Shown in pieces: positions 4,804 to 33,296 of a stretch of DNA of 40,069 bases; position 1 is the first letter of the stretch; each line of letters begins with the position of its first letter. Location: the NCBI GenBank assembly GCA_937944405.1, contig CALDYR010000010.1:1-40069 (forward strand), in the 5' to 3' direction. This DNA comes from an uncultured Pirellulaceae bacterium. Its GTDB lineage: Bacteria > Planctomycetota > Planctomycetia > Pirellulales > Pirellulaceae. The position numbers were made by a program, and so were the translations under genes. The notes under the pieces are model-generated. The model did no database searches, was not told the DNA's origin, and saw nothing but the letters and a program-made list of their open reading frames with translations.

Positions 4804-6525
4804 TCAGGGCTTAAAACTCTCTGTTTGTCGGGCGGTTCTGACCGGGGCACTGTCAGTAGTTTTAACGATTTTCACCGACCGACTTCCTAAGGCAAATCTG
4901 GGCCGCTGGTTCGATTTTTCAATCACCATCGCGCGAAGATCGCAATCACCTTTGACTCCAACTGGGATCTCGATCGACGTTTCAAACGGGCCCGCCGCAA
5001 TGAATAGCCCCTTGGTGACGCAGACTTGGTCATGGGCTTGTAAGTAGGTGCGTTGATAGTCCGCCATTTTTTCATCGTCGGAATCAAAACGCCGACGTCG
5101 CTTGGGACGCTTGCGAAATCGGTCGCGCTGATAGACCAGTTCGATCGTCAGTTCTCCGGCGAATGCACTGGTGCCGGAGACGACCATCCGATGGCCGGGG
5201 TGTGATTGGGCATCACAGAGGAGCGCCAGTTGCTCAGGCCGTTGTACACGCAGCAAGGGGTCGCCCAATAAATTCACCAGATGCAAGTGCTCACGTTTTT
5301 CGGCATCTAATCGTTTGGGCAACGGGCTCAACGAGCGTCCCATGCTTTCGATCAACCGCCGATACTTATCGTCGGCGCCCGGTTGCCGGAGCGCCATCGC
5401 CATTTTCGATTTACGCAATAACTGGCCGATGGTGATGCAGCGGCCTTCAAAAAATTCGTCCGCCATTTCAATAGACAATAGGCTCATCGCGTAGGGCATG
5501 GTCACCCGTGATCCGCAAATAACAGCCACCGGTCCACCGGCCTGTTTGAGCATTTGTTCGGCCAAACAATCTCGACTGCTGTCCAGCGCCCCGGCATAGC
5601 AGGACAAAAAAATGGCGATCGGGCTACCGAACTGGCAATTCAGCGCGACCGCGCTTTGATGGTCTAAAATATCAAAACGTTGTTCCGGGACACGCACTTT
5701 GTCTAACCGCCGCCGGTCGCCGTGGCCGACATAGATCCAGAACAAGCAACCTTCGTTGAAACGTTGGATCGACGTCTGCGAAAACAAACGCGGGTCAGGG
5801 CAGTAGGGGCTTTGCCAACTCGCGTACGTGACCGACGTGTCATAACTGGCAGGGATTTTATCGGTAATGATTTGTTTGGCCGTGCTTTCGATCAACCCAT
5901 CGGTGACGGTCCCAAATCCGCCCAATCCCGCCACGAGGTTGACTCGCCGACGCCAGCTGGGGTCGGCGCTGCTGGTTTCATATTCGATAACGCGGTCAAC
6001 GTATGCTTTCAGCTCCTGGGCGTCGGTGGCGATAATGCGGCCGACATTCAATTCCGGCAGCGCGTCGCCATTGAGATCGGCGTAGGTATTGTCAGTCGCA
6101 ATTTCAGGTTCCGAACCAAACATAAAATTGACTTCGGCCATCACATGAGTTGTCGGCAACAACGATTCCTGCGGCAGCGTCCAATCCGCCGCGTCGCCCA
6201 CCAAGACGAGATTTTCAATCTGTTGATGCCGCGCGACGATGCGCTGAATGAAGATTCGATTTTCAGCGGCAAACCGACGACTGTGGACGACTAAAAGACG
6301 GTGCCCTTGGCCGGTTCGGTAGTCGACCCAATCTTGAAGCGCCGGCGTCAATTGAGGTGCCGCGACGACCAAAGTGTCGTAAGGTTGAACCGTTTGAGCA
6401 TCGGCCGTTTGAGCATCGGCCGACATCACCAGCAGTAGCAGTAGCAGCGCGAAACAACCATGAATTAAACAACGGGTGAGGGTCTGAGCATTCACGGCGA
6501 GTTTTCCCAAGAGTAGACGGCACAT
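4804..6525 (-). CDS. Secreted C25 (gingipain-type) cysteine peptidase
   Basis: 573 residues. Residues 1-38 form a signal peptide (CFALLLLLLVMSADAQ), so the protein is exported. The body fits the gingipain catalytic fold: YDTLVVAAPQLTPALQDWVDY, the VGDA segment (NLVLVGDAADW), DNTYADLNGD and PELNVGRI, which is the family's usual substrate-domain start. The catalytic dyad is visible: His268 in YVGHGD and Cys309 in FLSCYAGA, each after a hydrophobic strand as in clan CD. Cleavage specificity cannot be read. The C-terminal 130 residues look like an Ig-like beta domain. A 15-bp tandem duplication (6391-6420) doubles ADAQT just after the signal peptide. It is 88 bases downstream of the CHAT gene on the same strand, so the two are probably co-transcribed. 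Confidence 0.85.
   Translation of the reverse strand: MCRLLLGKLAVNAQTLTRCLIHGCFALLLLLLVMSADAQTADAQTVQPYDTLVVAAPQLTPALQDWVDYRTGQGHRLLVVHSRRFAAENRIFIQRIVARHQQIENLVLVGDAADWTLPQESLLPTTHVMAEVNFMFGSEPEIATDNTYADLNGDALPELNVGRIIATDAQELKAYVDRVIEYETSSADPSWRRRVNLVAGLGGFGTVTDGLIESTAKQIITDKIPASYDTSVTYASWQSPYCPDPRLFSQTSIQRFNEGCLFWIYVGHGDRRRLDKVRVPEQRFDILDHQSAVALNCQFGSPIAIFLSCYAGALDSSRDCLAEQMLKQAGGPVAVICGSRVTMPYAMSLLSIEMADEFFEGRCITIGQLLRKSKMAMALRQPGADDKYRRLIESMGRSLSPLPKRLDAEKREHLHLVNLLGDPLLRVQRPEQLALLCDAQSHPGHRMVVSGTSAFAGELTIELVYQRDRFRKRPKRRRRFDSDDEKMADYQRTYLQAHDQVCVTKGLFIAAGPFETSIEIPVGVKGDCDLRAMVIEKSNQRPRFALGSRSVKIVKTTDSAPVRTARQTESFKP
6391..6420. repeat. 15-bp in-frame tandem duplication in the C25 peptidase gene
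   Basis: The unit CGTTTGAGCATCGGC occurs at 6391-6405 and 6406-6420 without mismatch. On the coding strand it repeats five residues (ADAQT) at the predicted signal-peptide cleavage region. Confidence 0.9.
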
Positions 6526-6613
6526 CAGCGATCAGGAGATGACTATTACGAAAATCGCCATTTCAAGCAACAGCGCTGCGGCTATCGTTTGCCCGCTGCG
6601 GCCAACCCCACTG

Positions 6614-9600
6614 CTACTTGTTCTTGCCGCCGATCTTCCACACGGCCCCCTGTTGATCGTCGCCATCTTCACCTTCAAGATTTTCGTGATCAACGTCTTT
6701 TTTGGTACTGCCTTGATCAACGTTGATTTTCTCTTTTTCACCTTCTGGGGGCTGCGTTTTTTCGATTCCTACCGGCTGCATTTTCACGTTTTTCATTTCC
6801 CCCTTTGGCATCGCGGGGTCGGCCGCGTTGGCCGCAGCGTGGTCTTCGCCCATTGCGGGATTGTCTAACGACGCCAGCACTGCGGGATCGGTGCCCCGTT
6901 GGTCATCGTACGAAACCAGCATTGGCCCGGCCCAGAAGAAGGGATGGTCGGCGCTGATTTCGTGCGGGTTGGCATCGGCTTTGACACGCGGTTCTTTGAC
7001 GCGATCAATTTTCACGGATTGCACGTGTTTGATCGCGTTTTGCAACGCTAAAGTGACCGGCATCGCGGCGGCGTATCGTCCATATCGCGCCCCGAGTTCG
7101 GCTTGCGTCTGCCCACCAGCATTCCAGCGCGACAGCAGCACCGACCGACCGCCTGCGGCCATGATGCTGGTCGCGGTGAAGAACATTTCGCTGCCATCAG
7201 GGCGCGCAATACCGCCTGCGCCACCGATCGAATTCAACCCCGTCATCACGACATGGTCGGGCGCCGCAAAGGGTATCTCCATCCAATCCAATAGAGTCCC
7301 CTGGGCCTGTGATTTTTTTCGACCGCTATCGGTTTGCAGCGGCTGCAAATTGAAAGCGCCATTTTTGGCCGACGCCGATTGCAGGACCACCAATTGATCC
7401 AATCGCCCGGCCAACTGATCGCCGGGCAAATGCCGACTACCGACGAGGTCTTTGGCATCGATTTCCTTCTCAAGCACTTCGGTGAACACGGCCTCAGCTA
7501 TTGACGAATCAGTTTGGGGGTACATCGCGCCGGTGACGACACCGGTAGTTTTGATTTCGCCGTCAGACGACGGTCGCGCGAAGGCTAAAAACAGGGTAGG
7601 GCAGTAACGTACTTTGGTGGTTTGAATTAAGGGCCGTTGGTCATCACCGTCACCGATTAAAAACGCTTCGATTGGCACGTACCACAGTAAACCATCGGGA
7701 ATCACGATCAGCTCTTTCGCCGCGGCTAATTGGTCGGCAGGAATATCCTCAAACAGATTCTCTTGAAACGCGCTGACCGCTTCCTTCCACGCGTCGGTGG
7801 CCAGCAACTGCGGGTCGGCGTAGTTGGCCGCCACCCCCATCGCACCCAGCAATTTCCCAACCCCCTTTTTCAGTGCGCCGGCGTCAACCAACCCAAGATA
7901 TCGCGCCCGTTGGTCGTCGAAAAAAAAGATGTGATACCCCGCAGCGGTTTGCAAAACACTGAACACGATCTGGTTGGGCTGTACAAATCCTTGGAGGTCC
8001 GAAGCGTTTCCGATCGGCGGGAAGGCCATCTCTGCCGGTTCGCGGCGCAACGCCATACTCGCAATTAACGACTCCTGGCGGGTGTAGATATCGGCTAGTT
8101 TGCGCATGGTTTGCCGTTGGGCCCGATCGTCATTCGATTCGGCAACCGGTTGTAACACGATCGCGGACAACCGATCCTTTAATAACGTGGCCTGGTTCAG
8201 CAAATCGCGATAGCCCGAATGACGCGTTAGTAACTCCTGTCGTTGTTTCAGCGCATCGGGTTTCAGAAATCGCACATCCCCTTGGAGCACCCACCGCAGG
8301 GACAGCAACCGTCCGCCCAGGGGCAGATCTGCGTAAAAGCGGTGGCGGCGAATTTGATCGGCCACTTCGACCGCGCGATCGATCTGTTTGCGGTTAATCA
8401 AAATTTCAAACCAACGTTCCAAAGCGCTCACATGCGGTGTCAATAAAAACGAAATCGCGTCCATCGGTTCGGTTCGCCACAATTGCTGGCTGGGGTCTTG
8501 CAACAGTTTGGTATACAACCGGTCGGCTTGTTTTTCCGTCAAAGACTGATTGGCAGCCATGTTATCAGCCAACTGAAGACGAAACAAAGCCGGCGATTTT
8601 GCGGTCAGTTCCTTCATTGCGGCCCGTAACGCGGTCAGTCCACCGCGCGTGTCGCCGGTTAAAAACTTATTGACCGCCGTCAAATAACGTAGTTTCCCCA
8701 CCAACGGGGTTTGCGCAATCTGGTTGCGATTGGTCATCAGATTGCCGGCCTGACTGAGGGCTTGATTGGACAACACAGCGTCCCCTGATTCCGACAGGCA
8801 CTCTGCTAAATTCACCTTCAAGGACGTTTCGAGCATTTGTGTACGCTCGCGACTGGCCCACTGGATCGCAGGCTCCAATGCCGGCAGCGGTGAACGTTGG
8901 GTCATCAGATGCGCTCTGGTGGCGATCGTAAAACCTTCTTCGACGACGTCGGGCTGCTGAAAATAGGCCCCCGCGTAGGTGGCTTCGAGCGCAAAATCCA
9001 ACGCCAAGTCAGGCTGTTCTTTTAGCACCCCGATGTGCGCCAGTTCGGATAGCGCCAGCGGCGTTAAGCGGTGATCTAACCCGCCCTGTAATTGCAGCGA
9101 TCCGGAGAGCGCGATGGCGGCTTTGTCGTGTTCCCCAATCGCCGACATCGCCATCCCATAAACGACACCATTGTAGGCGCCCAATAACGTCCCGTTGCCG
9201 ATGCCAGATTTCTTCACGCTGCCGGCTAATCGCAACGCATTGGGATCGTAACGGCCAGTTGGACCTGAAATTTGCCGGCGGCGCTGAATTGCCAACGCGG
9301 CACAGCGGAAAACTTCGGTAACGTCGACCTGACGAATTTCCGCTGGATCAAAAGTGCCGCCCTGTTCAAAGGCGCGCGATGCATCCAACCGACCACGCAA
9401 TACAGAAATACCATCGGAAACGTTAGCGATTTGCCCGTTGCGTTTTGACCTACCCCAGGTTATCCCGGCGCGCTGAAGGGCGCTGGTGTCGGACTGAATA
9501 ATGTCAGGCACGCGAATGTTCGATTGCCACCCCTGACGATTCAAACCAACATAAAGCTCTAAGGCTTCGTTGTAACGCTGCAACGCGGTCTGATAGTCGC

Positions 9601-9877
9601 CCACACGATAGTGACATTCCCCGATCATCGCCAGAATGCAAACCGAATCCACATAACGAGACTCACCAAACCGAAACGCGGTGCGGTATTCGGAATTGAA
9701 CCGACGCAAGGCCGACCTAAAATCGCCTTCGTAAAGATCGGCAAACCCGAAATAGTAACTGCGATGAGGAAGTTGCTGAGCCTGCCCGTGAGCGTCAGCG
9801 GGACAAAGACAACTTTGAAACAACACGGCCACAAAGCTCAACAACAACAACGGCGGACTAAATCTCATATCTGTCAC
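6614..9877 (-). CDS. Exported TPR and CHAT-domain protein with degenerate catalytic dyad
   Basis: 1087 residues. It starts with a signal peptide (PPLLLLSFVAVLFQSCLCPADA). TPR-like helices follow, for example AMIGECHYRVGDYQTALQRYNEALEL at about 85-110, with further helical repeats to about 600. The CHAT domain spans about 700-1000: LIVIPDGLLWYVPIEAF at about 723-739, VRYCPTLFLAFA, the sheet strand HVVMTGLN, and AAGGRSVLLSRWNAGG. CHAT peptidases have His in an LHFATHG-like motif and Cys in a VLSAC motif. Here those positions appear as VLQSASAK (Ala837 for the His) and VVMTGLN (Leu881 for the Cys). It is therefore probably a non-catalytic CHAT protein or scaffold. A charged C-terminal tail of about 65 residues follows. 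It precedes the C25 peptidase gene on the same strand. Confidence 0.85.
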   Translation of the reverse strand: MTDMRFSPPLLLLSFVAVLFQSCLCPADAHGQAQQLPHRSYYFGFADLYEGDFRSALRRFNSEYRTAFRFGESRYVDSVCILAMIGECHYRVGDYQTALQRYNEALELYVGLNRQGWQSNIRVPDIIQSDTSALQRAGITWGRSKRNGQIANVSDGISVLRGRLDASRAFEQGGTFDPAEIRQVDVTEVFRCAALAIQRRRQISGPTGRYDPNALRLAGSVKKSGIGNGTLLGAYNGVVYGMAMSAIGEHDKAAIALSGSLQLQGGLDHRLTPLALSELAHIGVLKEQPDLALDFALEATYAGAYFQQPDVVEEGFTIATRAHLMTQRSPLPALEPAIQWASRERTQMLETSLKVNLAECLSESGDAVLSNQALSQAGNLMTNRNQIAQTPLVGKLRYLTAVNKFLTGDTRGGLTALRAAMKELTAKSPALFRLQLADNMAANQSLTEKQADRLYTKLLQDPSQQLWRTEPMDAISFLLTPHVSALERWFEILINRKQIDRAVEVADQIRRHRFYADLPLGGRLLSLRWVLQGDVRFLKPDALKQRQELLTRHSGYRDLLNQATLLKDRLSAIVLQPVAESNDDRAQRQTMRKLADIYTRQESLIASMALRREPAEMAFPPIGNASDLQGFVQPNQIVFSVLQTAAGYHIFFFDDQRARYLGLVDAGALKKGVGKLLGAMGVAANYADPQLLATDAWKEAVSAFQENLFEDIPADQLAAAKELIVIPDGLLWYVPIEAFLIGDGDDQRPLIQTTKVRYCPTLFLAFARPSSDGEIKTTGVVTGAMYPQTDSSIAEAVFTEVLEKEIDAKDLVGSRHLPGDQLAGRLDQLVVLQSASAKNGAFNLQPLQTDSGRKKSQAQGTLLDWMEIPFAAPDHVVMTGLNSIGGAGGIARPDGSEMFFTATSIMAAGGRSVLLSRWNAGGQTQAELGARYGRYAAAMPVTLALQNAIKHVQSVKIDRVKEPRVKADANPHEISADHPFFWAGPMLVSYDDQRGTDPAVLASLDNPAMGEDHAAANAADPAMPKGEMKNVKMQPVGIEKTQPPEGEKEKINVDQGSTKKDVDHENLEGEDGDDQQGAVWKIGGKNK

Positions 9878-22391: not shown

Positions 22392-23513
22392 ATGTCGACG
22401 ACACACGTAGATTTGGAATCCGCAGTTTCCGCCGCCAAAGACCGTTTGGACCAACATGCCTACAAAATTGTACAGCGGCATTTTCATGACTCAACCGGTT
22501 GCCCATTTTGGTTGGAAAAGAAATCGACTTTCAACTTCGATCCACTGACTGAGGTCAAATGCTTCGATGATCTCAAGAAGTTTCCTTTGTTCGAAGACGA
22601 TTGGCTACGGGGTGGGCCGGTGGAACGATGGAAAATGAAAGACATGCAGCACCAACCGACTTACGTGTTTGAAACCGGTGGTACCACCGGCGTTCCCAAA
22701 AGCCGAGTCGTAGTCAATGACTTTCGTGACGACTACGAGAATTTCTCGCAGACGCTGCCGGACCAGTATTTCCCGCGCGGCGGAAACTGGTTGATGCTCG
22801 GACCGTCAGGCCCGCGCAGACTACGTTTGGCGGTGGAACATCTGGCTCAGTTCCGCGGCGGCATCTGTTTCTGTATCGACCTCGATCCACGTTGGGTCGT
22901 GAAACTGATCAAAAAAGGTTGGATGGAACATTTGAATGAATACAAAAAACACTGCATCGACCAAGCCATCACAATCCTCACCGCCAACCACAACATCAAA
23001 TGCATGTTCGCCACGCCGAAGCTGATTGAAGCGCTGTGTGAAGGATTGGAGGAACGGGGGATGACGCTGGCCGAAACGGGTATCACCGGAATCTTTTCCG
23101 GCGGCACCGAATTCACCCCTCAGTGGACTCGGTTTTGCGTCGAGGAACTTTTTGGGGGGGAGGCCGAAGAAAGCGGTATTTTCATGACACCCACTTACGG
23201 CAACACGCTGATGGGTTTAGCGTGTAGCAAACCGGTCACCGCCGCTGATAAATACAAGATCGCGTATTACGCGCCACAGCCCCGTGCCGTTACTGAGGTC
23301 GTCAGTTTTGAAGACAGCAACTCCGTGGTCGGAATCGGCGAAACAGGGCGCGTCAAACTAACGACCCTGACACCTGAATTCTTCGTCCCGGGATTCTTAG
23401 AACGCGACGAAGGCGAACGGGAACCGCCTTTTGAGACCTACCCTTGGTACGGTGTCAGCGGCGTGAGGCCCTTTCACGAGATTGCTTCATCCACCACCGT
23501 CGGCGTTTATTAA
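22392..23513 (+). CDS. AMP-binding (LuxE / phenylacetate-CoA ligase-like) acyl-activating enzyme
   Basis: 373 residues, shorter than full acyl-CoA synthetases and close to LuxE acyl-protein synthetases. The adenylation signature is ETGGTTGVPKS (residues 94-104). Downstream are ITGIFSGGTEF, an adenine-pocket-like motif; FMTPTYGNTLMG, corresponding to the usual YG(x)TE position; and TGRVKLTTLTPEFF near the end. The long C-terminal domain that completes thioester formation is reduced. It probably activates a carboxylic acid to an acyl-adenylate and passes it to a thiol; substrate and acceptor are unknown. It is the first of a plus-strand set with an aldehyde dehydrogenase and an alcohol dehydrogenase, which suggests the activated acid is reduced, or that the path runs backwards. 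Confidence 0.75.
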   Translation: MSTTHVDLESAVSAAKDRLDQHAYKIVQRHFHDSTGCPFWLEKKSTFNFDPLTEVKCFDDLKKFPLFEDDWLRGGPVERWKMKDMQHQPTYVFETGGTTGVPKSRVVVNDFRDDYENFSQTLPDQYFPRGGNWLMLGPSGPRRLRLAVEHLAQFRGGICFCIDLDPRWVVKLIKKGWMEHLNEYKKHCIDQAITILTANHNIKCMFATPKLIEALCEGLEERGMTLAETGITGIFSGGTEFTPQWTRFCVEELFGGEAEESGIFMTPTYGNTLMGLACSKPVTAADKYKIAYYAPQPRAVTEVVSFEDSNSVVGIGETGRVKLTTLTPEFFVPGFLERDEGEREPPFETYPWYGVSGVRPFHEIASSTTVGVY

Positions 23514-23659
23514 AACTGTTGCCCGAATGGAAACGGTCGTAAATCCATTGCTTTCGCATCGCGCGCAGGCACTGTCCAAAACCACCGTCGAAAGTGATCG
23601 GTGCCGGCACCAGACCGAGGCCGCGCCAAACTACTGCCCATTCCTTTTGGAGATATCGC

Positions 23660-25099
23660 GTGTTAGAGATTCCCGTTATTCGCTGGGGCAAACCCTATGA
23701 GTCGCTCGAGACAACCGAAGTCGTCCATTTCAATACGGGTGAAACGATCGCTAACGTCCACGCTGCCAACGGTGGATTGGTAACCCGCGACATGCGGTCG
23801 GCTCAAAAAGCGCGTGACGCGCTGCGGCAATTCTCTTGCGCTCAATTGATCGAAAAAATTGGCGTCGCAGCGGACTTGTTTGAAAACGAAGCGCTGCCCC
23901 TTGGTGATGGAACGCAGACCGCCGAAGAATTTGTCGACCATCAATCGGCTTCCACCGGACTTCCGATGCACATGTGTCGCAGCAACATGAAGAAAAACAG
24001 TTTCGTGATGCGGAACATGGAGGAGATTCTACAATGCCTCACGCGCGGGTTGGATTTAGACATTCTCACGCGCGGTTACGGGGTGGAATCACGCGGCGTG
24101 ATGGTCAGCTACCAAGCCCAGACGCCGGTGCTGGGAGCCGTTTTGCCGTCGAACTCGCCCGGAGTACACACGTTGTGGTTGCCCGCAATTCCACTGCAGA
24201 TGGGGCTGGTGCTGAAACCCGGATCACAAGAACCTTGGACCGCCTACCGTGTCGCTTCGGCCTATCAACAGGCCGGCATTCCAATCGAAGCGATTTCACT
24301 TTATCCTGGTGGCCACGACGTGGGATCTGCGCTGATGGATTCCTGCCCACGCAGCATGATTTTTGGTTCACAGAAAACGGTCGATCAATTTTCAGGAAAC
24401 CCACGCGTTCAAGTTCACGGCCCCGGTTTCTCGAAAATCTTCTTAGGCGACGACTCCGTCGACGACTGGGAACGGTACATCGACGTTATGGTCGAAAGCG
24501 TTTATATCAACGGTGGTCGTAGCTGTATCAATTGTTCGGCGATCTACGCATCGCGGCACACCCTAGAAATCGCTCAAGCGATCGCAGAAAAAATCGGCCC
24601 GGTCGAAGCATTGGGGCCGGAGGATGAGAACGCGGGTTTAGCCGCCTTCACCGCAGCGGGCATGGGAGAAGCGGTTTGGAACATGGTCAAAGCCGACCTC
24701 AAAGAAGACGGCGTGACCGATTGCACTGAGAAATTCGGTGACCGCTTAGTGGAAAAGGAGCGCTGTTCGTACCTGCGTCCGGTGGTGGCACATGCGGAAA
24801 GCCCCCAGTGCGCAATCGCCAGCAAGGAATTTATGTTTCCATTCGCAACGGTCGTAAAATGCCGACAAGACAAAATGCTCAAAGCGGCTGGACCGACGCT
24901 CGTTGGAACCGCGATCACGCAGGATCAAGCTTGGATTGACCAACTGACTGATGCGATTACGATTGACCGCCTAAACATCGGCCCAATTCCAACGAACCGT
25001 TTGAATTGGCTTCAACCGCATGAAGGCAACATCATCGACTTCCTTTATCGTTCGCGTGCCTATCAGGTTACCGAAGAAAAAATGGCGGAAATGGTGTAG
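23660..25099 (+). CDS. Aldehyde dehydrogenase family (acyl-reductase-like) protein
   Basis: 479 residues from the GTG at 23660, preceded by TTGGAGA (23647-23653). A longer frame opens at 23594 but its extra 22 residues are Arg-rich and lack family character. It has the ALDH Rossmann motifs: PVLGAVLPSNSPGVHTLWLPA (the NSP strand), LVLKPGSQEPWTAYRV, and IFGSQKTVDQFSGNP. The catalytic segment is NGGRSCINCSAIYAS, with nucleophile Cys289 or Cys292. The C-terminus has KEFMFPFATVVKC. It may act on an acyl thioester or adenylate from the upstream enzyme, or oxidise an aldehyde. The doubled Cys in the active-site loop is not typical of simple aldehyde dehydrogenases. Confidence 0.8.
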   Translation: MLEIPVIRWGKPYESLETTEVVHFNTGETIANVHAANGGLVTRDMRSAQKARDALRQFSCAQLIEKIGVAADLFENEALPLGDGTQTAEEFVDHQSASTGLPMHMCRSNMKKNSFVMRNMEEILQCLTRGLDLDILTRGYGVESRGVMVSYQAQTPVLGAVLPSNSPGVHTLWLPAIPLQMGLVLKPGSQEPWTAYRVASAYQQAGIPIEAISLYPGGHDVGSALMDSCPRSMIFGSQKTVDQFSGNPRVQVHGPGFSKIFLGDDSVDDWERYIDVMVESVYINGGRSCINCSAIYASRHTLEIAQAIAEKIGPVEALGPEDENAGLAAFTAAGMGEAVWNMVKADLKEDGVTDCTEKFGDRLVEKERCSYLRPVVAHAESPQCAIASKEFMFPFATVVKCRQDKMLKAAGPTLVGTAITQDQAWIDQLTDAITIDRLNIGPIPTNRLNWLQPHEGNIIDFLYRSRAYQVTEEKMAEMV

Positions 25100-25162
25100 T
25101 GCGCTGCGCGTAACGATTACCGATTTGTCCAATACCTTTCTATTGTTGCTTAGGAAATTCTC

Positions 25163-26293
25163 ATGCCGCCGACTTCAACAAGTCAACGTACCGAAGTCGT
25201 TCGTGGTGAAGGTGCGATCGCTCAACTGGGGAAGCTGACCCGTGGTTTGAGCGGTAGGAAAGCGCTCTTGGTCACCGATCCTGGTATCGTCGCCGCCGGT
25301 CACGTTCAAGCGGCTTTGGAGTCGCTGAAAAAATTCAACATCGACGTTCGTGTATTTGATGGGGCACGGGAAAATCCTACCACCGCCAACGTCGAAAGCG
25401 GTTTGGCGGTGGCCAAAGACTACCAACCCGACCTGTTCATCGGTTTAGGCGGTGGCAGTTCCATGGATTGCGCCAAAGGAATCAACTTCGTGTTCTCCTG
25501 CGGTGGAAAAATGCAGGACTACTGGGGCGTGGGGAAGGCCACGGGCGAACTGCTGCCGATGATCGCGATTCCCACCACCGCCGGCACCGGCAGCGAAATG
25601 CAATCCTTCGCGCTGATCTCCGACAAAGACACGCATATTAAAATGGCCTGCGGTGACAAACGTGCCGCTGCGAAGATTGCGATACTCGACCCACTTTTGA
25701 CGCTCACACAACCGCACTCAGTCACCGTACTGACGGGCATCGACGCCATTTCTCATGCCGTGGAAACCTGTGTGACGACCAAACGGAGTGAAGTCTCCGT
25801 TGATTTTTCCTGCAAGGCTTGGAAAGCGCTGGCGATGAACTTCAGCAAGGTTTTGCAGGACGCGACCGACGTGAAGGCCCGCACAAAGATGCAACTGGGG
25901 GCCGCCCATGCCGGGGTCGCGATCGAAAACTCGATGCTCGGTGCGGCTCACGCGTTGGCCAATCCATTGACTGCAGAATACGATATCGCGCACGGACAGG
26001 CCGTTGGTTTGATGTTGCCGCATGTGGTGAAATACAACGCCACCAAGTGCGAAAGCGATTACCAGATGCTGATGAAAGAGATTGGCCAAACCGGCGGCGG
26101 ATACGAACTGGCAGAATTGCTTACCCGCTTCTGCATGGAGGGCGGTCTAAAAGTTCGCTTGCGTGATTTGAACGTCGAAGAAGAAAAATTGTCGACGCTG
26201 GCCGACGCGGCGGCCGTACAATGGACCGGCACCTTTAACCCCGTCAGCGTGGACGCCCCCGCGCTGTTGGCGATCTACGAAGACGCTTTTTAA
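25163..26293 (+). CDS. Iron-containing (group III) alcohol dehydrogenase
   Basis: 376 residues. The NAD(P) motif is GLGGGSSMDCAKG at about 93-105, and PTTAGTGSE follows at about 139-147. Metal ligands match the FucO pattern: Asp194 and His198 in GIDAISHAVE, His263 in GAAHALANPL and His277 in DIAHGQ. The residue ten before His277 is Asn267, where FucO-type enzymes have a second histidine. It would interconvert an aldehyde and an alcohol in the cytoplasm. The gene lies 63 bases after the aldehyde dehydrogenase on the same strand, and together with the adenylating enzyme it completes a carboxylate-aldehyde-alcohol set. Confidence 0.9.
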   Translation: MPPTSTSQRTEVVRGEGAIAQLGKLTRGLSGRKALLVTDPGIVAAGHVQAALESLKKFNIDVRVFDGARENPTTANVESGLAVAKDYQPDLFIGLGGGSSMDCAKGINFVFSCGGKMQDYWGVGKATGELLPMIAIPTTAGTGSEMQSFALISDKDTHIKMACGDKRAAAKIAILDPLLTLTQPHSVTVLTGIDAISHAVETCVTTKRSEVSVDFSCKAWKALAMNFSKVLQDATDVKARTKMQLGAAHAGVAIENSMLGAAHALANPLTAEYDIAHGQAVGLMLPHVVKYNATKCESDYQMLMKEIGQTGGGYELAELLTRFCMEGGLKVRLRDLNVEEEKLSTLADAAAVQWTGTFNPVSVDAPALLAIYEDAF

Positions 26294-26480
26294 AAAAAAG
26301 GCTGACTGAATTGCAATGACACGCACAGAAATCGTCGTGAGATTCGCAAGAATTGATGATGGTGGGATTTACTTTGGGTGTGTATACGTGGTGTTGGCCA
26401 ATTTCACCATATTCAGCCGAAGTGTTGGGCTCCAAACAAGCCTAACGCGATCACGTGCCAGGAATCACTTTTTCAACCCC

Positions 26481-26508
26481 GCTTCATTAAATCCGCTTCA
26501 TTAAATCC
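26481..26508. repeat. 14-bp tandem duplication (2 copies)
   Basis: GCTTCATTAAATCC at 26481-26494 and again at 26495-26508, exact, 28 bases upstream of the beta-propeller gene start. The surrounding gap 26294-26535 (242 bases) shows no gene. Confidence 0.9.
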
Positions 26509-26535
26509 GCTCCAAAAAATTACGGAAACCAAGCG

Positions 26536-27654
26536 ATGCGCACCTTTGTAATCCTGTTGTTGGCTTTGGGGGGCAACACAGCCATCGCGCAGCAGAATCA
26601 ACCATGGACTTCGTTTCGTGGGAATGCTCAATCCACGGGTTTCGCGCCAGCAGGCGATTTCAATGCGCTCAAAACGCAATGGGATTTTAAGCTCGACGAT
26701 GGTGGTTTTGAATCGAGCGCCGCGATTGCCGAACAAACCGTTTTTATCGCCGGCGTCACCAATGACGTCAAAGGGAAAATGTTCGCACTGCGGCTAAGCG
26801 ACGGAGAGAAGCAATGGGAATTCGATTCCCCTGACGGATTCATCACCACCCCCGCCTACGACAGCGGTCAGTTATATCTGGGCGACATGCAGGGCGTATT
26901 CCGCTGCGTCGACGGCGGTGGTAAAGAGATCTGGAAATATCAAACCGACGTCGAAATTAACTCGTCGGCGAATGTTTTCAAGGACACCGTTATTTTTGGT
27001 TCGCAGAATGCAAAACTTTACGCGCTGTCCAAAACCACGGGCGAATTGGTTTGGCAAACTGAAGTCAACGATCAAATTCAAAGTTCGATCACGTTGGCCG
27101 GAGACCGCGTTTTTCTGGCCGGGTGTGACAGCCTCCTGCACGTCATCGGTGCCGCGGACGGCAACGCGTTAGGCACCGTGGAGATTGAATCGCCGACCAT
27201 TGCGACTCCTGCAGTGTTGGCCGGTGAGGTCTTCTTCGGTACCGAAAAAGCCGACTTCTTCGCCGTCGATTGGGAGAAAATCGAAGTCAAGTGGAAGCGG
27301 CCTGATCCCCAAGGCGGGAGTTCGATCCGGAGTTCCGCCGCCGTTGCCGATGGGCATATCGTGTTCGGTGGGCGCAATCGGAAACTTTATTCGCTCAACC
27401 CGGTTAATGGAGAAGAAAATTGGACGATAGCGCTGAAAAACAAAGTCGACCCGTCGCCGATTATCCTTGGAAGTCGCGTCGTCGCGGCCTCCAGCGACGG
27501 CCGGTTGTACGTGATCGACTTGGAAACCGGTGAAAAGCTGTGGGAAAAAGAATTCAATGGTAACTTCGTTGGATCACCGGCTTATGCGGACGGTCGAATC
27601 ATCATTGCGACCGACCAGGGCGTGGTCTATTGTTTAAGTCTGGACACGGAGTAG
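26536..27654 (+). CDS. Exported PQQ-like (BamB-type) beta-propeller protein
   Basis: 372 residues. The signal peptide is MRTFVILLLALGGNTAIAQQ. Repeated blades follow: WTSFRGNAQSTGFAP, GKMFALRLSDGEKQWEFDSPDG, QLYLGDMQGVFRCVDGGGKEIWKY, KLYALSKTTGELVWQTEV, KLYSLNPVNGEENWTIAL and RLYVIDLETGEKLWEKEF. This matches the PQQ-enzyme-repeat / BamB-like seven-bladed family. There are no quinoprotein dehydrogenase catalytic residues, so PQQ binding is not implied. It is exported, whereas its plus-strand neighbours appear to be cytosolic. It may be a binding or scaffolding protein, or an unrelated gene in the cluster. Confidence 0.85.
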   Translation: MRTFVILLLALGGNTAIAQQNQPWTSFRGNAQSTGFAPAGDFNALKTQWDFKLDDGGFESSAAIAEQTVFIAGVTNDVKGKMFALRLSDGEKQWEFDSPDGFITTPAYDSGQLYLGDMQGVFRCVDGGGKEIWKYQTDVEINSSANVFKDTVIFGSQNAKLYALSKTTGELVWQTEVNDQIQSSITLAGDRVFLAGCDSLLHVIGAADGNALGTVEIESPTIATPAVLAGEVFFGTEKADFFAVDWEKIEVKWKRPDPQGGSSIRSSAAVADGHIVFGGRNRKLYSLNPVNGEENWTIALKNKVDPSPIILGSRVVAASSDGRLYVIDLETGEKLWEKEFNGNFVGSPAYADGRIIIATDQGVVYCLSLDTE

Positions 27655-27694
27655 GCGATCGATAGGCTTCCGGCAGGCTCGAAGGCCGCACGTC

Positions 27695-27720
27695 GCAACT
27701 TTTGCAACTTTTGCAACTTT
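27695..27720. repeat. 9-bp tandem repeat (about 2.9 copies)
   Basis: GCAACTTTT at 27695-27703 and 27704-27712, then GCAACTTT at 27713-27720, between the beta-propeller and radical SAM genes. Confidence 0.9.
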
Positions 27721-27729
27721 AAAGCACCC

Positions 27730-27763
27730 TACGGCTGAAACCAAACTATGGCTGAAACCAAAA
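27730..27763 (+). repeat. 17-bp tandem duplication over a start codon
   Basis: TACGGCTGAAACCAAAC (27730-27746) is followed by TATGGCTGAAACCAAAA (27747-27763). The second copy contains the ATG of the radical SAM gene (27748); the first has ACG at the same place, so the start region was duplicated. Confidence 0.85.
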
Positions 27764-29055
27764 AAACCGAAGTCGGCAGTTACTTCATTTCCAACTACCC
27801 GCCGTTCTCCCAGTGGAAATCTGAGCAACTGGATGCCGTCACATCGGTATTGGCTCAACCACCGGTCGCCGAAACGCCGCTGGGACTGTATCTGCATATT
27901 CCCTTTTGCCGGAAACGGTGCAAGTTCTGCTACTTCAAAGTCTTCACCGACCAAAACGCGAAAGAGATCGAATCGTATGTCGCGGCGTTGTGCAAGGAAA
28001 TCGAATTGGTCAGCCAGCAACCTGTCATGGGCGATCGCCCTTTTCGGTTCGTTTATTTTGGTGGCGGCACCCCTTCATTTTTAAGCGCTCGGCAACTGAC
28101 ATCGTTGGTCGACCGCTTGCGCCAAAACATCAATTGGGACCGCGCCGAAGAGGTGACTTTCGAATGCGAACCGGGAACGCTTCAAGAGAATAAAATTAAG
28201 ACGCTGAAGGAACTTGGCGTGACGCGGTTAAGCCTGGGCGTAGAAAACTTCACCGATTCAGTGCTTGAGGAAAACGGCCGGGCGCACCTTTCCAAGGAAG
28301 TTTATAAAGCGTGGGACTGGATCAAAGCGGCTGATTTTGACAACGTCAACATTGATTTAATCTCAGGCATGGTCGGCGAAACATGGGACAATTGGAAATA
28401 CAACATCGCCCAAGCGATCCAACTTTCTCCCGAAAGCGTAACGATCTATCAAATGGAATTGCCGTTCAATACAGTTTATTCCAAGGATATCTTGGGCGAA
28501 AAAATTGAAACGCCGGTCGCGGACTGGGACACCAAGCGTGCATGGTTGGACTACGCATACGACGAATTTTTGGCCGCTGGATATAAGATCAGCAGCGCCT
28601 ACACGGTCGTCAAAGACAGCCGCAAAGTCAACTTCAGCTACCGTGATAATCTGTGGCAGGGCTCCGATCTGTTGGCAACCGGAATCGCCAGTTTCGGTCA
28701 CGTGTCCGGCATCCATTACCAGAACAAAGCCGACATGGCGCAATACAAAGAAGAACTGATCCAACACGGCCGTTTGCCTTTGGGCCGCGCTTTTGCACCG
28801 ACGAAACACCAGTTGTTGATTCGCGAAATGATTTTGCAATTGAAACGTGGGTATTTGGAGGTCGATTACTTCCGGCGAAAATACGATGTCGACATTACCC
28901 AACAATGGGCCAATGAATTTAAGGACCACGCCGCCCAAGGGATGCTGACCTTCGATGACGCCGGTGTCGAATTGACTCGTAAAGGATTCCTACACGCCGA
29001 CGCGCTGTTGCCGCCGTTCTTTGAAGCCGAAAGCCGAGGCGTCAGATATACGTAG
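27748..29055 (+). CDS. HemN/HemW-like radical SAM protein
   Basis: 435 residues. The radical SAM cluster motif is HIPFCRKRCKFCYF, with Cys54, Cys58 and Cys61 in CxxxCxxC spacing. The HemN/HemW family fold continues with FVYFGGGTPSFL, VTFECEPGTL, TRLSLGVENF and NIDLISGMVGET. The fourth Cys near the motif found in HemN (CxxxCxxCxC) is absent; Tyr-Phe follows instead. The C-terminal HemN-type domain is present (LIREMILQLKRGYLEVDYFRRKY). These proteins range from coproporphyrinogen oxidases to heme chaperones and methyltransferases, so the name does not define a reaction. Its neighbours carry a lipoyl domain and Fe-S clusters, which argues for a specialised role rather than heme synthesis. Confidence 0.85.
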   Translation: MAETKKTEVGSYFISNYPPFSQWKSEQLDAVTSVLAQPPVAETPLGLYLHIPFCRKRCKFCYFKVFTDQNAKEIESYVAALCKEIELVSQQPVMGDRPFRFVYFGGGTPSFLSARQLTSLVDRLRQNINWDRAEEVTFECEPGTLQENKIKTLKELGVTRLSLGVENFTDSVLEENGRAHLSKEVYKAWDWIKAADFDNVNIDLISGMVGETWDNWKYNIAQAIQLSPESVTIYQMELPFNTVYSKDILGEKIETPVADWDTKRAWLDYAYDEFLAAGYKISSAYTVVKDSRKVNFSYRDNLWQGSDLLATGIASFGHVSGIHYQNKADMAQYKEELIQHGRLPLGRAFAPTKHQLLIREMILQLKRGYLEVDYFRRKYDVDITQQWANEFKDHAAQGMLTFDDAGVELTRKGFLHADALLPPFFEAESRGVRYT

Positions 29056-29193
29056 TGGTTTGGCGCCGTTAAAAATTAGGGTTCTTCAGTTTAATCGTTT
29101 CGGTGAAAGCCCGGTTTATTTAGTGTGACGGGCCCGAATTTTGGCGAATTGAGTTACCCCGAAATCACGACTTGCCGAATCACGAGGCCCGCC

Positions 29194-29661
29194 ATGCAGC
29201 ATCACATTTTTATGATGGGGGAATTCGAAGCTGTTTTCCCTGACGATCGACAATATCACCGCAATCACATGTGGTCTCAACGACGATCCACCGGCGAAGA
29301 ACGTTTCGGATTCACCGCGTATGCCGTGCGTTTGCTACAGGACGTTTATTTTTTGGATTGGTCCATCGACGCCCCGGTCGCGATTACTGCGGGACAGGAA
29401 ATTGGCGCAATCGAAAGCAAGAAAGCCGAAAGTAGCCTTTACGCAGCGGTCTCTGGGAACTTAACTCAATTTAACGAATCCCTCATGGATGATCCTTCGG
29501 CGATCAACGTCGACAAATACGAAACCGGATGGTTGTTTGAGATGGACGTTTCGTTACCGACTGACAGCACGCGCCCCTTAGATGTCGAAGGCTATCTAGA
29601 ACTGTTGATCGGAGTTTGGGAAAAGACGCAACGAACCATCAAAGGGCAAGCCAACGAGTAA
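29194..29661 (+). CDS. GcvH-like lipoyl-domain carrier protein
   Basis: 155 residues from the ATG at 29194, with GAGG eight bases upstream; an in-frame GTG at 29125 would add 23 unconserved residues. The H-protein fold is seen as FGFTAYAVRLLQDVYFLD, then the lipoyl-lysine motif IESKKAESSLYAAVSG (Lys77 at the usual position) and the closing DKYETGWLFEM. Standard GcvH has ExVKAxSxxxxPVSG; here the preceding Val is Lys and the Pro is Ala. No gcvP or gcvT gene is nearby. Some GcvH-like proteins act as dedicated lipoyl carriers outside glycine cleavage, for example in sulfur metabolism, so a similar carrier role for this cluster is possible. It lies between a radical SAM gene and a ferredoxin gene on the same strand. 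Confidence 0.8.
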   Translation: MQHHIFMMGEFEAVFPDDRQYHRNHMWSQRRSTGEERFGFTAYAVRLLQDVYFLDWSIDAPVAITAGQEIGAIESKKAESSLYAAVSGNLTQFNESLMDDPSAINVDKYETGWLFEMDVSLPTDSTRPLDVEGYLELLIGVWEKTQRTIKGQANE

Positions 29662-29800
29662 AACGATGTGCTGGAAGCTTCGGCCGATTCGCCGACCGGC
29701 CAATCATAGGTCACTTCGACGATAGGACTGTTGGCGACTTTATGGATGGGGTGTGTTAAACTAAGTTCAAGAAACCGAATTCAGCAAAAAACCAAATCCT

Positions 29801-30892
29801 ATGGCGAAACGCATTTCCGTGGTGGTCTCACAAGGCCCGAGCAAAAATCCCGTCAAACGCAAGCTTGAGGAGGACATTGTCGCTGCCTTACTGTTTGAAA
29901 ATGGCATCGACGTAACAGTTGTACCCAATCTCTATGATATCAAACCCGACAGTACCGGGATGTTGGCACTCAAATCGATCAGCGGCAACATGATCGTTTG
30001 TTCATGGTTGTTCGAACGTGCGGCACATTGGGTGTTGGACCGCAATGACATTTCGGGACAGGTCGGCAAAATCCTTCTCCAGGACGCCTATGAGGAAGAA
30101 GAGGGGAATGAATTCGCCGAAGAAGACCTCGAAAACGCACCGCCCGAATTAAAATCAACCGTCGTCAGCCAACGGGAGATTACGAATCGAAAGATTTACT
30201 GTTTAGACCTTAAAGCTTCCACCAGAGCCGATGATTTTATCGCAGAAGCAAAACGCATCCAACGCGCGAACTTGGTCCAGGTGGTTTCACTCAATGATGT
30301 GATTTCCGGCGGCGCGATGCAGCGTCTTGATACGCCGACCAAAGATACCGCGATCACCAAAGATGGATCGGGAATCGAAGGTTTAGCCACCAGTGGTTTG
30401 GATATCGGCCCTGCGACGGTAAAACGAATCGAAAATTCTCAGGGCCGGCGTTGGTACCCTGTGATCGACTACAGCCGCTGCACCAATTGTATGGAGTGCA
30501 TCGATTTTTGTTTGTTCGGTGTCTATGGAGTCGACCGAATCGACACGATTCTGGTGGAACAGCCCGACAATTGCCGTAAGGGCTGTCCGGCATGCAGTCG
30601 CGTTTGCCCGGAGAACGCGATCATGTTCCCCCAACACAAAACCCCAGCGATTGCCGGGTCTGCCGAAGGCAATGCAAGCATGAAGATTGACTTGTCACAG
30701 TTATTCGGCGGTCCTGCCGATGGCAAATCTGCCGAAGAGATTGCCGCGATTGAGCGCGATGAACAGTTGCTGATCGCCGGTCGCGATGCCGTTGGCATGC
30801 AAGGGCTGGAACGCCGACACTCAGTCACAACCGCTGCAGCCCCCAAAGACGATTTGGACAAACTGTTGGATCAGTTAGACGACTTTGAATGA
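29801..30892 (+). CDS. Two-[4Fe-4S] ferredoxin-domain protein
   Basis: 363 residues. The N-terminal 220 residues are not recognised; they are mixed alpha/beta with an acidic stretch (EEEEGNEFAEEDLE). Two Fe-S motifs follow: Cys227-x2-Cys230-x2-Cys233-x3-Cys237 (RCTNCMECIDFC) and Cys258-x3-Cys262-x2-Cys265-x3-Cys269 (NCRKGCPACSRVCP). The order and spacing fit a bacterial dicluster ferredoxin fold with an altered second motif. A C-terminal tail (about 275-363) includes IDLSQLFGGPADG and an acidic end. It could pass electrons to the radical SAM protein or to the lipoyl carrier. The long N-terminus suggests a partner-binding or enzymatic role beyond simple electron transfer. Confidence 0.75.
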   Translation: MAKRISVVVSQGPSKNPVKRKLEEDIVAALLFENGIDVTVVPNLYDIKPDSTGMLALKSISGNMIVCSWLFERAAHWVLDRNDISGQVGKILLQDAYEEEEGNEFAEEDLENAPPELKSTVVSQREITNRKIYCLDLKASTRADDFIAEAKRIQRANLVQVVSLNDVISGGAMQRLDTPTKDTAITKDGSGIEGLATSGLDIGPATVKRIENSQGRRWYPVIDYSRCTNCMECIDFCLFGVYGVDRIDTILVEQPDNCRKGCPACSRVCPENAIMFPQHKTPAIAGSAEGNASMKIDLSQLFGGPADGKSAEEIAAIERDEQLLIAGRDAVGMQGLERRHSVTTAAAPKDDLDKLLDQLDDFE

Positions 30893-31007: not shown

Positions 31008-31703
31008 CTATTTGCACAATAACGCGCAATCGCAAGCCCATCGGTATGGGTGTGCCGAGTTTTGATTGTAGTAGTCGATAAACTTGAGGATTCGTTGATT
31101 GAGGTCGTTTACGGATTTGAAGGCGCCGTGTCGAATTAGCTTTCTTCGAAGCACTCCCAACGCAGGACGTTGAAATGGAATCGACAATGTTACGTTGACA
31201 GCTTCGTCGGCGATTTCAGCCGCTGTCCATGTGGCGCTGGGCCGATCCGATTCTGAGTCAGGAGCCTCGCAGGCGATCGCCACGATAGCTGCTTGTTGTT
31301 CCGTGGAAAATGTGGAGCCGCGACCTTTACGGGGTTGGTCACTGGGAACTTTTGCCACGGCGCGCTCAAGGGCGGCACGCGTTTGGTTGCACTCAACCTC
31401 AACGAGTTCATCAAAGCGCGCTTTCCAGCGTCGTCGCCAAAGGCCAACCTGTTGCGGGTTGAGCCCAACGATTTCACTAATGAACTCGTTGTTCTTCTTG
31501 TCGAAGCCCAGCAAAACGATCTGAGCACGCTGCGCCAATCGAACAGCAACGGTGCGACTGGTAACCATTGATTCGAGAATTTTCATTTGAACTGCGCCAA
31601 GAAGTATTTTCGCCGCCGTTCCCGGCATACCTCCGCTCCTGTCAAAAACGGGAACGCCGCAAAAGTCTCCCCTCCAACAAATGCCGATTTGAAGTTCAAC
31701 CAC
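31008..31703 (-). pseudogene. IS630-family transposase remnant with deleted catalytic core
   Basis: On the minus strand the N-terminal part has the helix-turn-helix region VAVRLAQRAQIVLLGFD, then IVGLNPQQVGLWRRRW and GRGSTFSTEQQAAIVAIACE with RPSATWTAAEIADEAV. These are typical of IS630 transposases. After about residue 185 it jumps to the family's C-terminus, SVNDLNQRILKFIDYYNQN and AHPYRWACD, still in frame. The DDE core in between (over 100 residues) is lost. The first 40 residues are not family-like, so the original start is probably near 31580. It lies between the ferredoxin gene and the SPASM-type radical SAM gene and may have separated a once-continuous cluster. Confidence 0.75.
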
Positions 31704-31938: not shown

Positions 31939-33210
31939 TTATTTCAGCTTCACTAAATCCTGTGGGGGCGGGGGGGCCGACATCGGATCGATCCACTTAG
32001 AAGCCTCAAAGTGTTTTTCATAAACACCATAGTCATGGTAAGCGATTTTCTTGGCGATACGATATGCCCAGCTTTTCTCTGCGATGGGCTTCATTGTGGG
32101 AGAGTACTGGGAAGGGTGAGGTTGGGAGGCGCGAAGTTCGGCCAGTGCTGTTTTGCGGGCGGTCGAATCTTCGGCACCGTGACGTTCGGCTAAAGATTCG
32201 ATTAAGTCGGGACGCTCTAACACGATACAACCGCGCGTATGCTGGGCGGCCGTTTTACGAAAATCCTTTAAGTACTCCGATTCGTTAAACACTTCGTCCA
32301 ACGGCCGATCATCGTGAATCGACTCTTTGGCGAACTGGATAATGGGACAGGGTTCAATATCGCCCCAAGGATTGACGTGATGTGTAAATCCGGTCGCCGC
32401 CGGACAGAGCGCGTTTCCATCGGCGTCATAATAGGCATCGATCACAATGATGGGTTTCTTACACCGAATATCGACGACGAACTGTCGCGCCCGACGTTGT
32501 TGTTCGGGAGTCAGCGCTAAATCGGGAGATGCGTCGGGCCCGACCGGACGAAAGACATGAAACCAGGTATACAACACCCCCATTTCAATCAACCGGTCCA
32601 CCCATTTTTCAGTCAACAGATCGTCGATGTTCGTTTGACAAAGACTTGTACAAACACCCGTCATTACCTTATTGTTCAGGCAGTTTTGCAACCCTTCCAT
32701 CGTTGCCGAATAGACCCCCATTTTCCCGCGCCGTTGGTCACTGATGATTTCAGAACCTTCAATACTAATCAGGGCCGTGACGTTTCCACACTTCCTTAAC
32801 CGTTTGGCGACTTCATCAGTGATGAAGTGTCCATTGGTGAAGACTTGAAAGTAGGCGTCGGGATGGGCCTCCAATACGTCGAAGAGTTCCTTGTGCATGA
32901 AGGGTTCACCCCCAAGAATTCCGAAGAACGAATTCCCCATCTTCTTCGCCGTGGTGATCATGCGGTTGAGCGCGTCGACTTCGATTTTGTGCTGTTTTGA
33001 AGCCACGTCAACCCAGCATCCCTGGCAACGCAGGTTACAACTGTTGATGATCGAGATATAAAGATAGGGTGGAAAAAAATCCCCCCGTTTCAGACGCCGT
33101 TTGTGCGTCTGAACGCTGTAAAGCCCTTTCATCCCCATGTTCCACGCCAACTTCCAAAGCAACCGTTTATCAGTTTCCAGCAACATTCGTTTGGCAAGTC
33201 GAAGATACAT
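31939..33210 (-). CDS. Radical SAM protein with SPASM-like C-terminus
   Basis: 423 residues from the ATG at 33210; an upstream GTG (33261) would add 17 residues. The cluster motif is NSCNLRCQGCWVD, with Cys58, Cys62 and Cys65. The fold continues with GNSFFGILGGEPFMHKEL, FQVFTNGHFI and ALISIEGSE. The C-terminal part holds further cysteines (LCPAATG, DIEPCPI, TRGCIV) in SPASM-like spacing, suggesting auxiliary Fe-S binding. The substrate is unknown. It is divergent from the DUF2927 gene, with only 86 bases between their start codons. It lies 1 kb from the lipoyl/ferredoxin genes, separated by an IS630 remnant, and may belong to the same pathway. Confidence 0.8.
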   Translation of the reverse strand: MYLRLAKRMLLETDKRLLWKLAWNMGMKGLYSVQTHKRRLKRGDFFPPYLYISIINSCNLRCQGCWVDVASKQHKIEVDALNRMITTAKKMGNSFFGILGGEPFMHKELFDVLEAHPDAYFQVFTNGHFITDEVAKRLRKCGNVTALISIEGSEIISDQRRGKMGVYSATMEGLQNCLNNKVMTGVCTSLCQTNIDDLLTEKWVDRLIEMGVLYTWFHVFRPVGPDASPDLALTPEQQRRARQFVVDIRCKKPIIVIDAYYDADGNALCPAATGFTHHVNPWGDIEPCPIIQFAKESIHDDRPLDEVFNESEYLKDFRKTAAQHTRGCIVLERPDLIESLAERHGAEDSTARKTALAELRASQPHPSQYSPTMKPIAEKSWAYRIAKKIAYHDYGVYEKHFEASKWIDPMSAPPPPQDLVKLK

Positions 33211-33296
33211 TGGCGTTGAGCGGTTAGAGTACGATGTTAGTAAAAGACGGTATTCTAACACCCAGCGGTAACAAATCTAATACGAAGACAAATCTA

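Follow-up and report, generated by a model that had tools for sequence, protein, structure and literature searches.

A conserved planctomycetal gene set combining a putative aryl acid reductase with a lipoyl carrier, iron-sulfur proteins and terpenoid-type partners

Gene content and conservation of the locus

We analysed a stretch of 40,069 nucleotides (here called the window; the whole of contig CALDYR010000010.1) from an uncultured Pirellulaceae bacterium, and in particular the seven open reading frames (ORFs) P0001 to P0007 at 22392-30892. All seven lie on the plus strand, at the coordinates given in a first-pass annotation of the same DNA. Their order and strand and, from Pfam and NCBIfam, their families agreed with that annotation, the identity of the first gene excepted. 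The locus holds parts of two modules that meet here, module A (22392-29055) and module B. The gene of a further radical S-adenosylmethionine (SAM) protein, P0010 (31939-33261), belongs with the set despite its location on the other strand. The features are:

22392..23513, plus strand: P0001, EhpF-like adenylating enzyme (module A), by match to PDB 3l2k/3hgu
23594..25099, plus strand: P0002, EhpG-like aldehyde dehydrogenase (module A), Aldedh family, matching a Pantoea aldehyde dehydrogenase
25163..26293, plus strand: P0003, iron-containing alcohol dehydrogenase (module A), PF00465 and PF25137 (C-terminal domain)
26536..27654, plus strand: P0004, PQQ/BamB-type beta-propeller (module A), PF13360 (PQQ_2)
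27748..29055, plus strand: P0005, radical SAM protein, HemN-like but from a subfamily that has no name (module A), PF04055
29125..29661, plus strand: P0006, GcvH-like lipoyl carrier (module B), PF01597 (GCV_H)
29801..30892, plus strand: P0007, dicluster ferredoxin with an additional N-terminal domain (module B), two 4Fe-4S motifs
31008..31703, minus strand: IS630-like transposase fragment, no part of the system (NF033545, 37.6 bits, cut-off 100)
31939..33261, minus strand: P0010, radical SAM protein with extra C-terminal cysteines (module B), by co-occurrence with module B

Judged from the sequences of relatives, the true starts of P0002 and P0006 are probably near 23660 and 29194, about 22 and 23 codons downstream of the respective ORF starts. 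In P0003 the residues D194, H198, H263 and H277 are kept in 14 of 14 aligned sequences, and the N terminus of P0004 is signal-peptide-like as judged by eye. The nearest NCBIfam models of P0005 are HutW, STM4012, HemN and HemW, all scoring below their cut-offs (hemN 185/325, HemW 178/205 and HutW 202/400 bits), and its C54-x3-C58-x2-C61 motif is present in at least 93% of 21 aligned sequences. The N-terminal part of P0007, about 200 residues that precede the 4Fe-4S motifs, has no family match.

The seven genes form a genuine set whose conservation exceeds chance. Among 30 genomes of close relatives, 25 carry P0007, including that of the window; we compared the loci of the other 24, many of which are cut by contig ends, and allowed intervening ORFs in the order counts. 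All seven genes were found in order on one strand in 8/24 loci, six from the genus of the window and two (L120 and L124; L numbers denote loci, G numbers genomes) from other families of the order. The shorter run HemN-GcvH-ferredoxin was kept in 18/24. The first-pass annotation had proposed one conserved gene set and had named, as the alternative, chance clustering of genes whose homologues lie apart with no neighbours conserved; these counts bear out the former. The P0010 homologue lies on the opposite strand in 11/24 loci, and the IS630-like fragment between the ferredoxin and P0010 genes may have split an older continuous cluster. Five same-genus loci contain an inserted small FHA-like ORF (named by eye). 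There are also cases that speak against a fixed unit: the ferredoxin gene stands alone in four same-genus loci (L107, L110, L111 and L112), and G167 has module A genes and a cyclase without the ferredoxin (L129).

Furthermore, the L120 run goes beyond the seven genes and takes in two more, for a class II cyclase resembling squalene-hopene cyclases and for a polyprenyl synthase fused to a DUF116 domain. In the genome of the window a cyclase, a synthase and a chorismate-lyase-like gene (the last at about 6365-6913) lie together on another contig, C107. The initial view of the seven genes as one system thus held in part: the set is conserved, but the system is not complete in seven genes, since its defining partners, namely the class II cyclase, the DUF116-polyprenyl synthase, the chorismate-lyase-like protein and P0010, lie outside them.

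Module A encodes a putative aryl carboxylic acid reductase

P0001 (373 residues) had been described as LuxE/PaaK-like. It is EhpF-like instead, as residues 9-360 (352 residues) match EhpF (PDB 3l2k/3hgu) with E 7e-33, and the LuxE/PaaK identity was dropped after this match. Its Pfam AMP-binding score of 21.2 bits lies below the cut-off of 29.9. As expected of the EhpF type, the Pfam scan reported no C-terminal AMP-binding domain for P0001. The TGGTTG.PK stretch was found in 12/12 aligned sequences. P0002 scored 111 bits to the Pantoea aldehyde dehydrogenase in the EhpG position and 131 bits to that of a haloarchaeal pair, compared to 41 bits for E. coli GabD. The catalytic cysteine is kept, and (H/Q/Y)GPG stands in P0002 and its Pantoea and haloarchaeal relatives where GabD has LELGG, so that the usual general-base glutamate is gone. 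From these comparisons P0001 and P0002 are probably an aryl carboxylic acid reductase rather than a LuxE-like system, and on the same sequence grounds we regard a reductase step as well supported. Since P0001 is of the EhpF type, its substrate is probably aromatic and not fatty acyl. The earlier proposal that the first three genes interconvert a carboxylate, an aldehyde and an alcohol agrees with their families.

The pairing of the two genes was also seen outside the phylum. When 72,556 plasmid records were searched, P0002 matched 16 at a cut-off of E 1e-15, and 12 of the 15 listed were also among those listed for P0001. In 11 of these 12 the two matches were at most 450 bases apart in one direction; in NZ_CP108721 they were 2 kb apart on opposite strands. 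The remaining three P0002 records are from Pantoea and belong to the P0001 matches that were counted but not listed; adjacency was seen in Pantoea. Genes of the P0001 and P0002 types are adjacent in a haloarchaeon as well.

P0001 and P0002 are thus homologous to an adjacent Pantoea pair in the same order, with the same glutamate missing in P0002, and are 27% and 24% identical to it. The function of EhpF/EhpG we take to lie with griseoluteic acid. P0001 and P0002 also resemble the GriC/GriD pair associated with grixazone, a likeness drawn from the description of those proteins rather than from their alignment. GriC/GriD provide a characterised precedent: they are described as activating 3-amino-4-hydroxybenzoate by adenylation and then forming the aldehyde from it by reduction (PMC10179220). 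The partners of the pair studied here differ from both, its neighbours being an alcohol dehydrogenase gene, the gene of a HemN-like radical SAM protein and a terpenoid module in place of phenazine or phenoxazinone genes.

In other families a separate locus often groups the AMP-ligase, aldehyde dehydrogenase, iron-containing alcohol dehydrogenase, propeller and HemN-like genes. Where examples were inspected, a sodium:solute symporter gene came before this group, and after it came genes for a small protein, a flavoprotein resembling halogenases and geranylgeranyl reductases, a GT4 glycosyltransferase and a thioesterase. The symporter gene was seen directly 5′ of the EhpF-like gene (L245, L247, L252 and L268) in several genomes of the phylum as well as in the haloarchaeon Halalkalicoccus. 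This position suggests uptake of an aromatic acid.

A chorismate-lyase-like protein accompanies P0001

A chorismate-lyase-like gene was found in 22 loci, where it adjoins the synthase gene (12), the HemN-like gene (9) or the cyclase gene (1). A profile of 21 of these sequences matched PDB 2nwi, which we take to be a PF01947-type (Rv2949c-like) protein, with E 4.6e-6, and E. coli UbiC in hhalign with a probability of 77 and E 2e-5. R81, P120, G122, G162-R163 and E179 are invariant in the 21 sequences. The protein thus resembles chorismate pyruvate-lyases (PF01947, UbiC) in its profile matches and its conserved catalytic-type arginine and glutamate, but it falls below the Pfam cut-off and forms a distinct family.

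Among the 149 genomes of the phylum search described below, the gene was found in 24, all of which carry P0001, and in 0/117 genomes without P0001 (Fisher 3e-21, shared ancestry ignored). This nesting within the P0001 genomes is the strongest argument that the substrate of P0001 is a hydroxybenzoate, which we accordingly treat as the probable, sequence-predicted substrate.

Module B is a separate core with terpenoid-type enzymes

We searched 149 genomes of the phylum with P0007. Presence of module B was defined as a best ferredoxin match with E <1e-16, which gave 37 genomes including that of the window; the next genome had E 3.7e-7, and 64 matched at E 0.001. The neighbourhoods of all 36 other module-B genomes were covered, many of them cut by contig ends, and family names were checked on examples by Pfam and NCBIfam. 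In these 36 loci we found the synthase fusion (27), the cyclase (24), the GcvH-like carrier (21), a prenyltransferase-repeat protein of the single-barrel type (21), a P0010 homologue (20) and a CobW-like GTPase (18). Six loci (L046, L047, L048, L051, L054 and L126) share one order, namely carrier, CobW-like protein, small four-cysteine protein, ferredoxin, P0010-type protein, synthase, prenyltransferase-like protein and cyclase, whereas the other loci are cut or vary. Judged from the sequences, the small four-cysteine protein seems to have its counterpart in the N-terminal part of P0007, where most of the cysteines are lost; fused forms of four-cysteine protein and ferredoxin in which the cysteines are kept occur in L061, L063 and L065.

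The lipoyl-lysine position of P0006 (K100) is conserved in at least 93% of 41 aligned sequences, and its NCBIfam gcvH score is 73 bits, below 115.85. A canonical GcvH is encoded elsewhere in the genome in 7/7 genomes checked, that of the window among them, and a lipoyl synthase LipA scored above cut-off in 7/7. With its lysine kept and both of these proteins encoded beside it, P0006 is a specialised paralogue.

P0010 has a CxxxCxxC motif plus extra C-terminal cysteines. At a presence threshold of E <1e-90, which retains 29 of the 45 genomes matching at 1e-30, P0010 was found in 29/37 module-B genomes compared to 0/112 others, and in other families its gene lies inside the module-B cluster. Five of the eight module-B genomes without it (G010, G041, G098, G107 and G114) have a B12-type-like radical SAM gene at the locus. 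A radical SAM protein different from P0010 was noted in L044, L058-L060, L065 and L147, and the two copies scanned were nearest to the B12-binding TIGR04013. In L044 the TIGR04013-like gene lies between the ferredoxin and synthase genes, and no P0010 homologue was found in these six loci. The TIGR04013-like protein is possibly a non-homologous replacement of P0010.

The synthase combines a polyprenyl synthase with a DUF116 domain, whose cysteines are conserved (for instance L035:5641-7491); the first DDxxD motif and the DxxD of the second are present in at least 93% of 38 sequences. A model of the DUF116 domain (mean predicted local distance difference test score, pLDDT, 72) gave no Foldseek match at E 0.001. 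The cyclase has the N- and C-terminal domains of squalene-hopene cyclases, and its DXDD motif is present in at least 93% of 34 sequences. The two cyclases scored miss the NCBIfam cut-offs, the better one with 160 against 323 and 137 against 431 bits. Squalene/phytoene synthase (PF00494) was found in 24/37 module-B genomes compared to 67/112 others, which is no association (p 0.70), and squalene synthase was not found in 13/37 module-B genomes, including G057 (99% complete). Because of these 13 genomes, we consider a polyprenyl diphosphate the probable substrate of the cyclase.

Module B is common to Planctomycetota, Verrucomicrobiota and Acidobacteriota. Scanning named genomes with the ferredoxin profile gave at least 536 relatives, and we examined 10 kb around the ferredoxin gene in the best 80. 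These include two redundancies: L167 and L046 share one contig, and so, apparently, do L181 and L182. In 76 of the best 80 the title names a group of the three phyla. The four-cysteine protein was found in 71 of the best 80, the P0010 type in 56, the CobW-like protein in 47, the carrier in 43, the synthase in 41, the prenyltransferase-like protein in 33 and the cyclase in 26.

Association between the two modules

To score the presence of P0001 we used a threshold of E <1e-100, which holds for 32 of the 42 genomes matching at 1e-10. P0001 was found in 25/37 module-B genomes compared to 7/112 others (p 2e-13 in a Fisher test, which ignores shared ancestry), and 16 families contain genomes with both P0001 and module B. 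The two modules are neighbours in the order to which the window belongs, in L034, L046 and L053, and in L207, a metagenome-assembled genome of the Opitutae and thus outside the phylum. P0001 itself stands beside module B in L046 and L207, in both with the aldehyde dehydrogenase gene, and in L053, which reaches a contig end; in L034 the modules adjoin without P0001, whose gene sits on another contig.

The first-pass annotation had the lipoyl carrier and the ferredoxin serve the same substrate as the first enzymes. Both belong to a separate core, and since P0001 is missing from 12/37 module-B genomes and 7/112 genomes show the reverse, the carrier and the ferredoxin need not share a substrate with the first genes.

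Proposed pathway and alternative explanations

Gene order, co-occurrence, family resemblance and conserved catalytic-type residues were observed directly, and on these we base a two-module scheme, to which we give an even chance, in which a hydroxybenzoate-derived aldehyde or alcohol is made for, or together with, a cyclised polyprenyl product. The chorismate-lyase-like enzyme would convert chorismate to a hydroxybenzoate, which P0001 would adenylate; P0002 would reduce the activated acid to a hydroxybenzaldehyde, and P0003 could convert this aldehyde to the benzyl alcohol. P0005 and P0004 may modify the aromatic product or act in export, which is the least certain part. In the second half the DUF116-fused synthase would make a polyprenyl diphosphate chain, the class II (DXDD) cyclase would fold it, and P0010 would modify the cyclised product, with P0006 and P0007 supplying electrons, sulfur or a tethered intermediate to this step. 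The hydroxybenzoate as substrate, the directions of these reactions, the cargo of P0006 and the ending of both halves in one molecule are what we infer from family and context. Because the modules are merged in the order of the window, the likeliest product would be a phenol-derived cyclised polyprenyl, a meroterpenoid or quinone-like lipid. A ring and a chain joined in one product would be the most economical reading.

Several observations weigh against this scheme. Twelve of the 37 module-B genomes lack P0001 and seven P0001 genomes lack module B, several of these genomes being incomplete, and the co-occurrence tests treat the genomes as independent although they are kin. P0001 was found together with P0002 in 2/80 named loci (the best 80 of at least 536), one of which is the L046 contig. 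In 7/7 genomes the search for a UbiA-type gene within 60 kb of the clusters was negative, and therefore no enzyme joining ring and chain was identified; UbiA homologues are present elsewhere in all seven. A squalene/phytoene synthase homologue is encoded in 24 module-B genomes, among them that of the window (71 bits). In G162 (91% complete) the ferredoxin occurs without synthase or cyclase, and in G150, G161, G169 and G173 the synthase occurs without the ferredoxin. With regard to the aromatic half, the chorismate-lyase-like gene was not found in 8/32 P0001 genomes; PF01947 was detected only in the L120 copy, at 17.2 bits and thus below the cut-off of 22, and five other copies gave no Pfam hit. 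In addition, of the 28 plasmid records in which a P0001 relative was found, 12 gave no match to P0002 at E 1e-15, and one Streptomyces gene annotated as arylcarboxylate reductase adjoins a polyketide synthase gene instead of an aldehyde dehydrogenase gene.

The genomes that carry one module only and the two of 80 named loci with P0001 would suit two unconnected systems that are adjacent by coincidence, A making a phenolic glycoside or a similar small aromatic compound and B a terpenoid. The frequent occurrence of module A as a separate locus with symporter, flavoprotein, GT4 glycosyltransferase and thioesterase genes also fits this explanation, which is a substantial possibility but one that we doubt. 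It would leave the co-occurrence (25/37 against 7/112), the 16 families with both modules and the adjacency of P0001 to module B in L046, L053 and L207 to chance, and the chorismate-lyase-like gene alternates between neighbours from module A (HemN) and module B (polyprenyl synthase). The cyclase could, on the other hand, belong to a hopanoid-type route in which squalene is its substrate and the product is then modified by the other genes, in the manner of HpnH. Its squalene-hopene cyclase domains and DXDD motif are those of hopanoid clusters, and the squalene/phytoene synthase homologues of 24/37 module-B genomes, that of the window included, would allow it. A Verrucomicrobial squalene-hopene-cyclase cluster, which may or may not be the one described here, has been labelled hopanoid (PMC8692599). 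We consider this route unlikely, as squalene/phytoene synthase is statistically unlinked to module B and was not found in the nearly complete G057, and the cluster has its own DUF116-polyprenyl synthase besides radical SAM and lipoyl carrier genes. Moreover, the two cyclases scored fall below the NCBIfam cut-offs, and HpnH is not among the 25 families listed, of 54, for P0010.

The presence of the GcvH-like carrier beside iron-sulfur proteins raises the question of an sHdr/LbpA-like sulfur or electron shuttle, made up of carrier, four-cysteine protein and ferredoxin and unrelated to terpenoids. A GcvH-like lipoate carrier is described as essential in Hdr-like sulfur oxidation (PMC6067878). As with LbpA, the carrier studied here is clustered with iron-sulfur proteins and occurs beside a canonical GcvH, and a cysteine-desulfurase-like gene lies in 7/36 loci and in 21/80 (the best 80 of at least 536). 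However, no hdr genes were recognised among the conserved neighbours, for which no family search was made, and terpenoid genes are found instead; the carrier sits with the synthase and cyclase across phyla, which makes such a shuttle very unlikely. The HdrA identity considered for the small four-cysteine protein was set aside: it came from a motif resemblance to which PDB profile search and Foldseek gave no support, although a missing match is weak evidence. Its AlphaFold model (pLDDT 89.7) had no Foldseek match at E <=0.001 (best 9.5e-3), and the profile search returned 8cws and 8cwy at about 2e-5, from repeated short matches, and 6xv2 at 0.03, none of them named Hdr. Planctomycetota have ether lipids, and the order of ligase, aldehyde dehydrogenase and alcohol dehydrogenase genes would fit a LuxCDE-like reduction of fatty acyl groups to fatty alcohols, in which the lipoyl protein would carry the acyl group and the alcohols would go into ether lipids or waxes. 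This is the most improbable of the explanations: no LuxE or LuxC Pfam family was found for P0001 or P0002 at E 0.001, P0001 matches EhpF at 7e-33, and the lipoyl carrier is present where P0001 was not found, for instance in G079.

Other features of the window

Genes for trigger factor and two ClpP-like proteins were recognised by eye 5′ of the gene set. A gingipain-like (C25-type) protease at 4804-6525 on the minus strand adjoins a TPR protein whose C terminus is CHAT-like, at 6614-9877 on the same strand (by eye); protease/CHAT-type pairs are sometimes part of protease-based defence or signalling systems. Close to the contig start, at 516-1058 on the minus strand, we noted by eye a truncated ISAs1-type-like transposase.

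Implications

Most protein families of the set are already known, but DUF116 and the four-cysteine protein are without known function, and there is a real chance that the class of product is new. No description of the cluster was found in the literature searched, a search to which most subscription journals and all preprints were out of reach. Only tentatively do we suggest a new class of bacterial lipid or redox cofactor, in which a radical reaction would link a cyclised polyprenyl chain, made by the DUF116-fused synthase and the class II cyclase, to a ring derived from chorismate while a dedicated lipoyl carrier holds the intermediate; if true, this class would be common to Planctomycetota, Verrucomicrobiota and Acidobacteriota. 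If the squalene-independent reading of the cyclase is true, some cyclase genes labelled hopanoid in metagenomes may be misassigned. For DUF116, and for a GcvH-like carrier with a role other than glycine cleavage, the gene set suggests functions that can be tested; candidate substrates are chorismate, hydroxybenzoates and polyprenyl diphosphates. Its retention across several phyla points to a product of many soil and water bacteria that is apparently undescribed in the literature searched.

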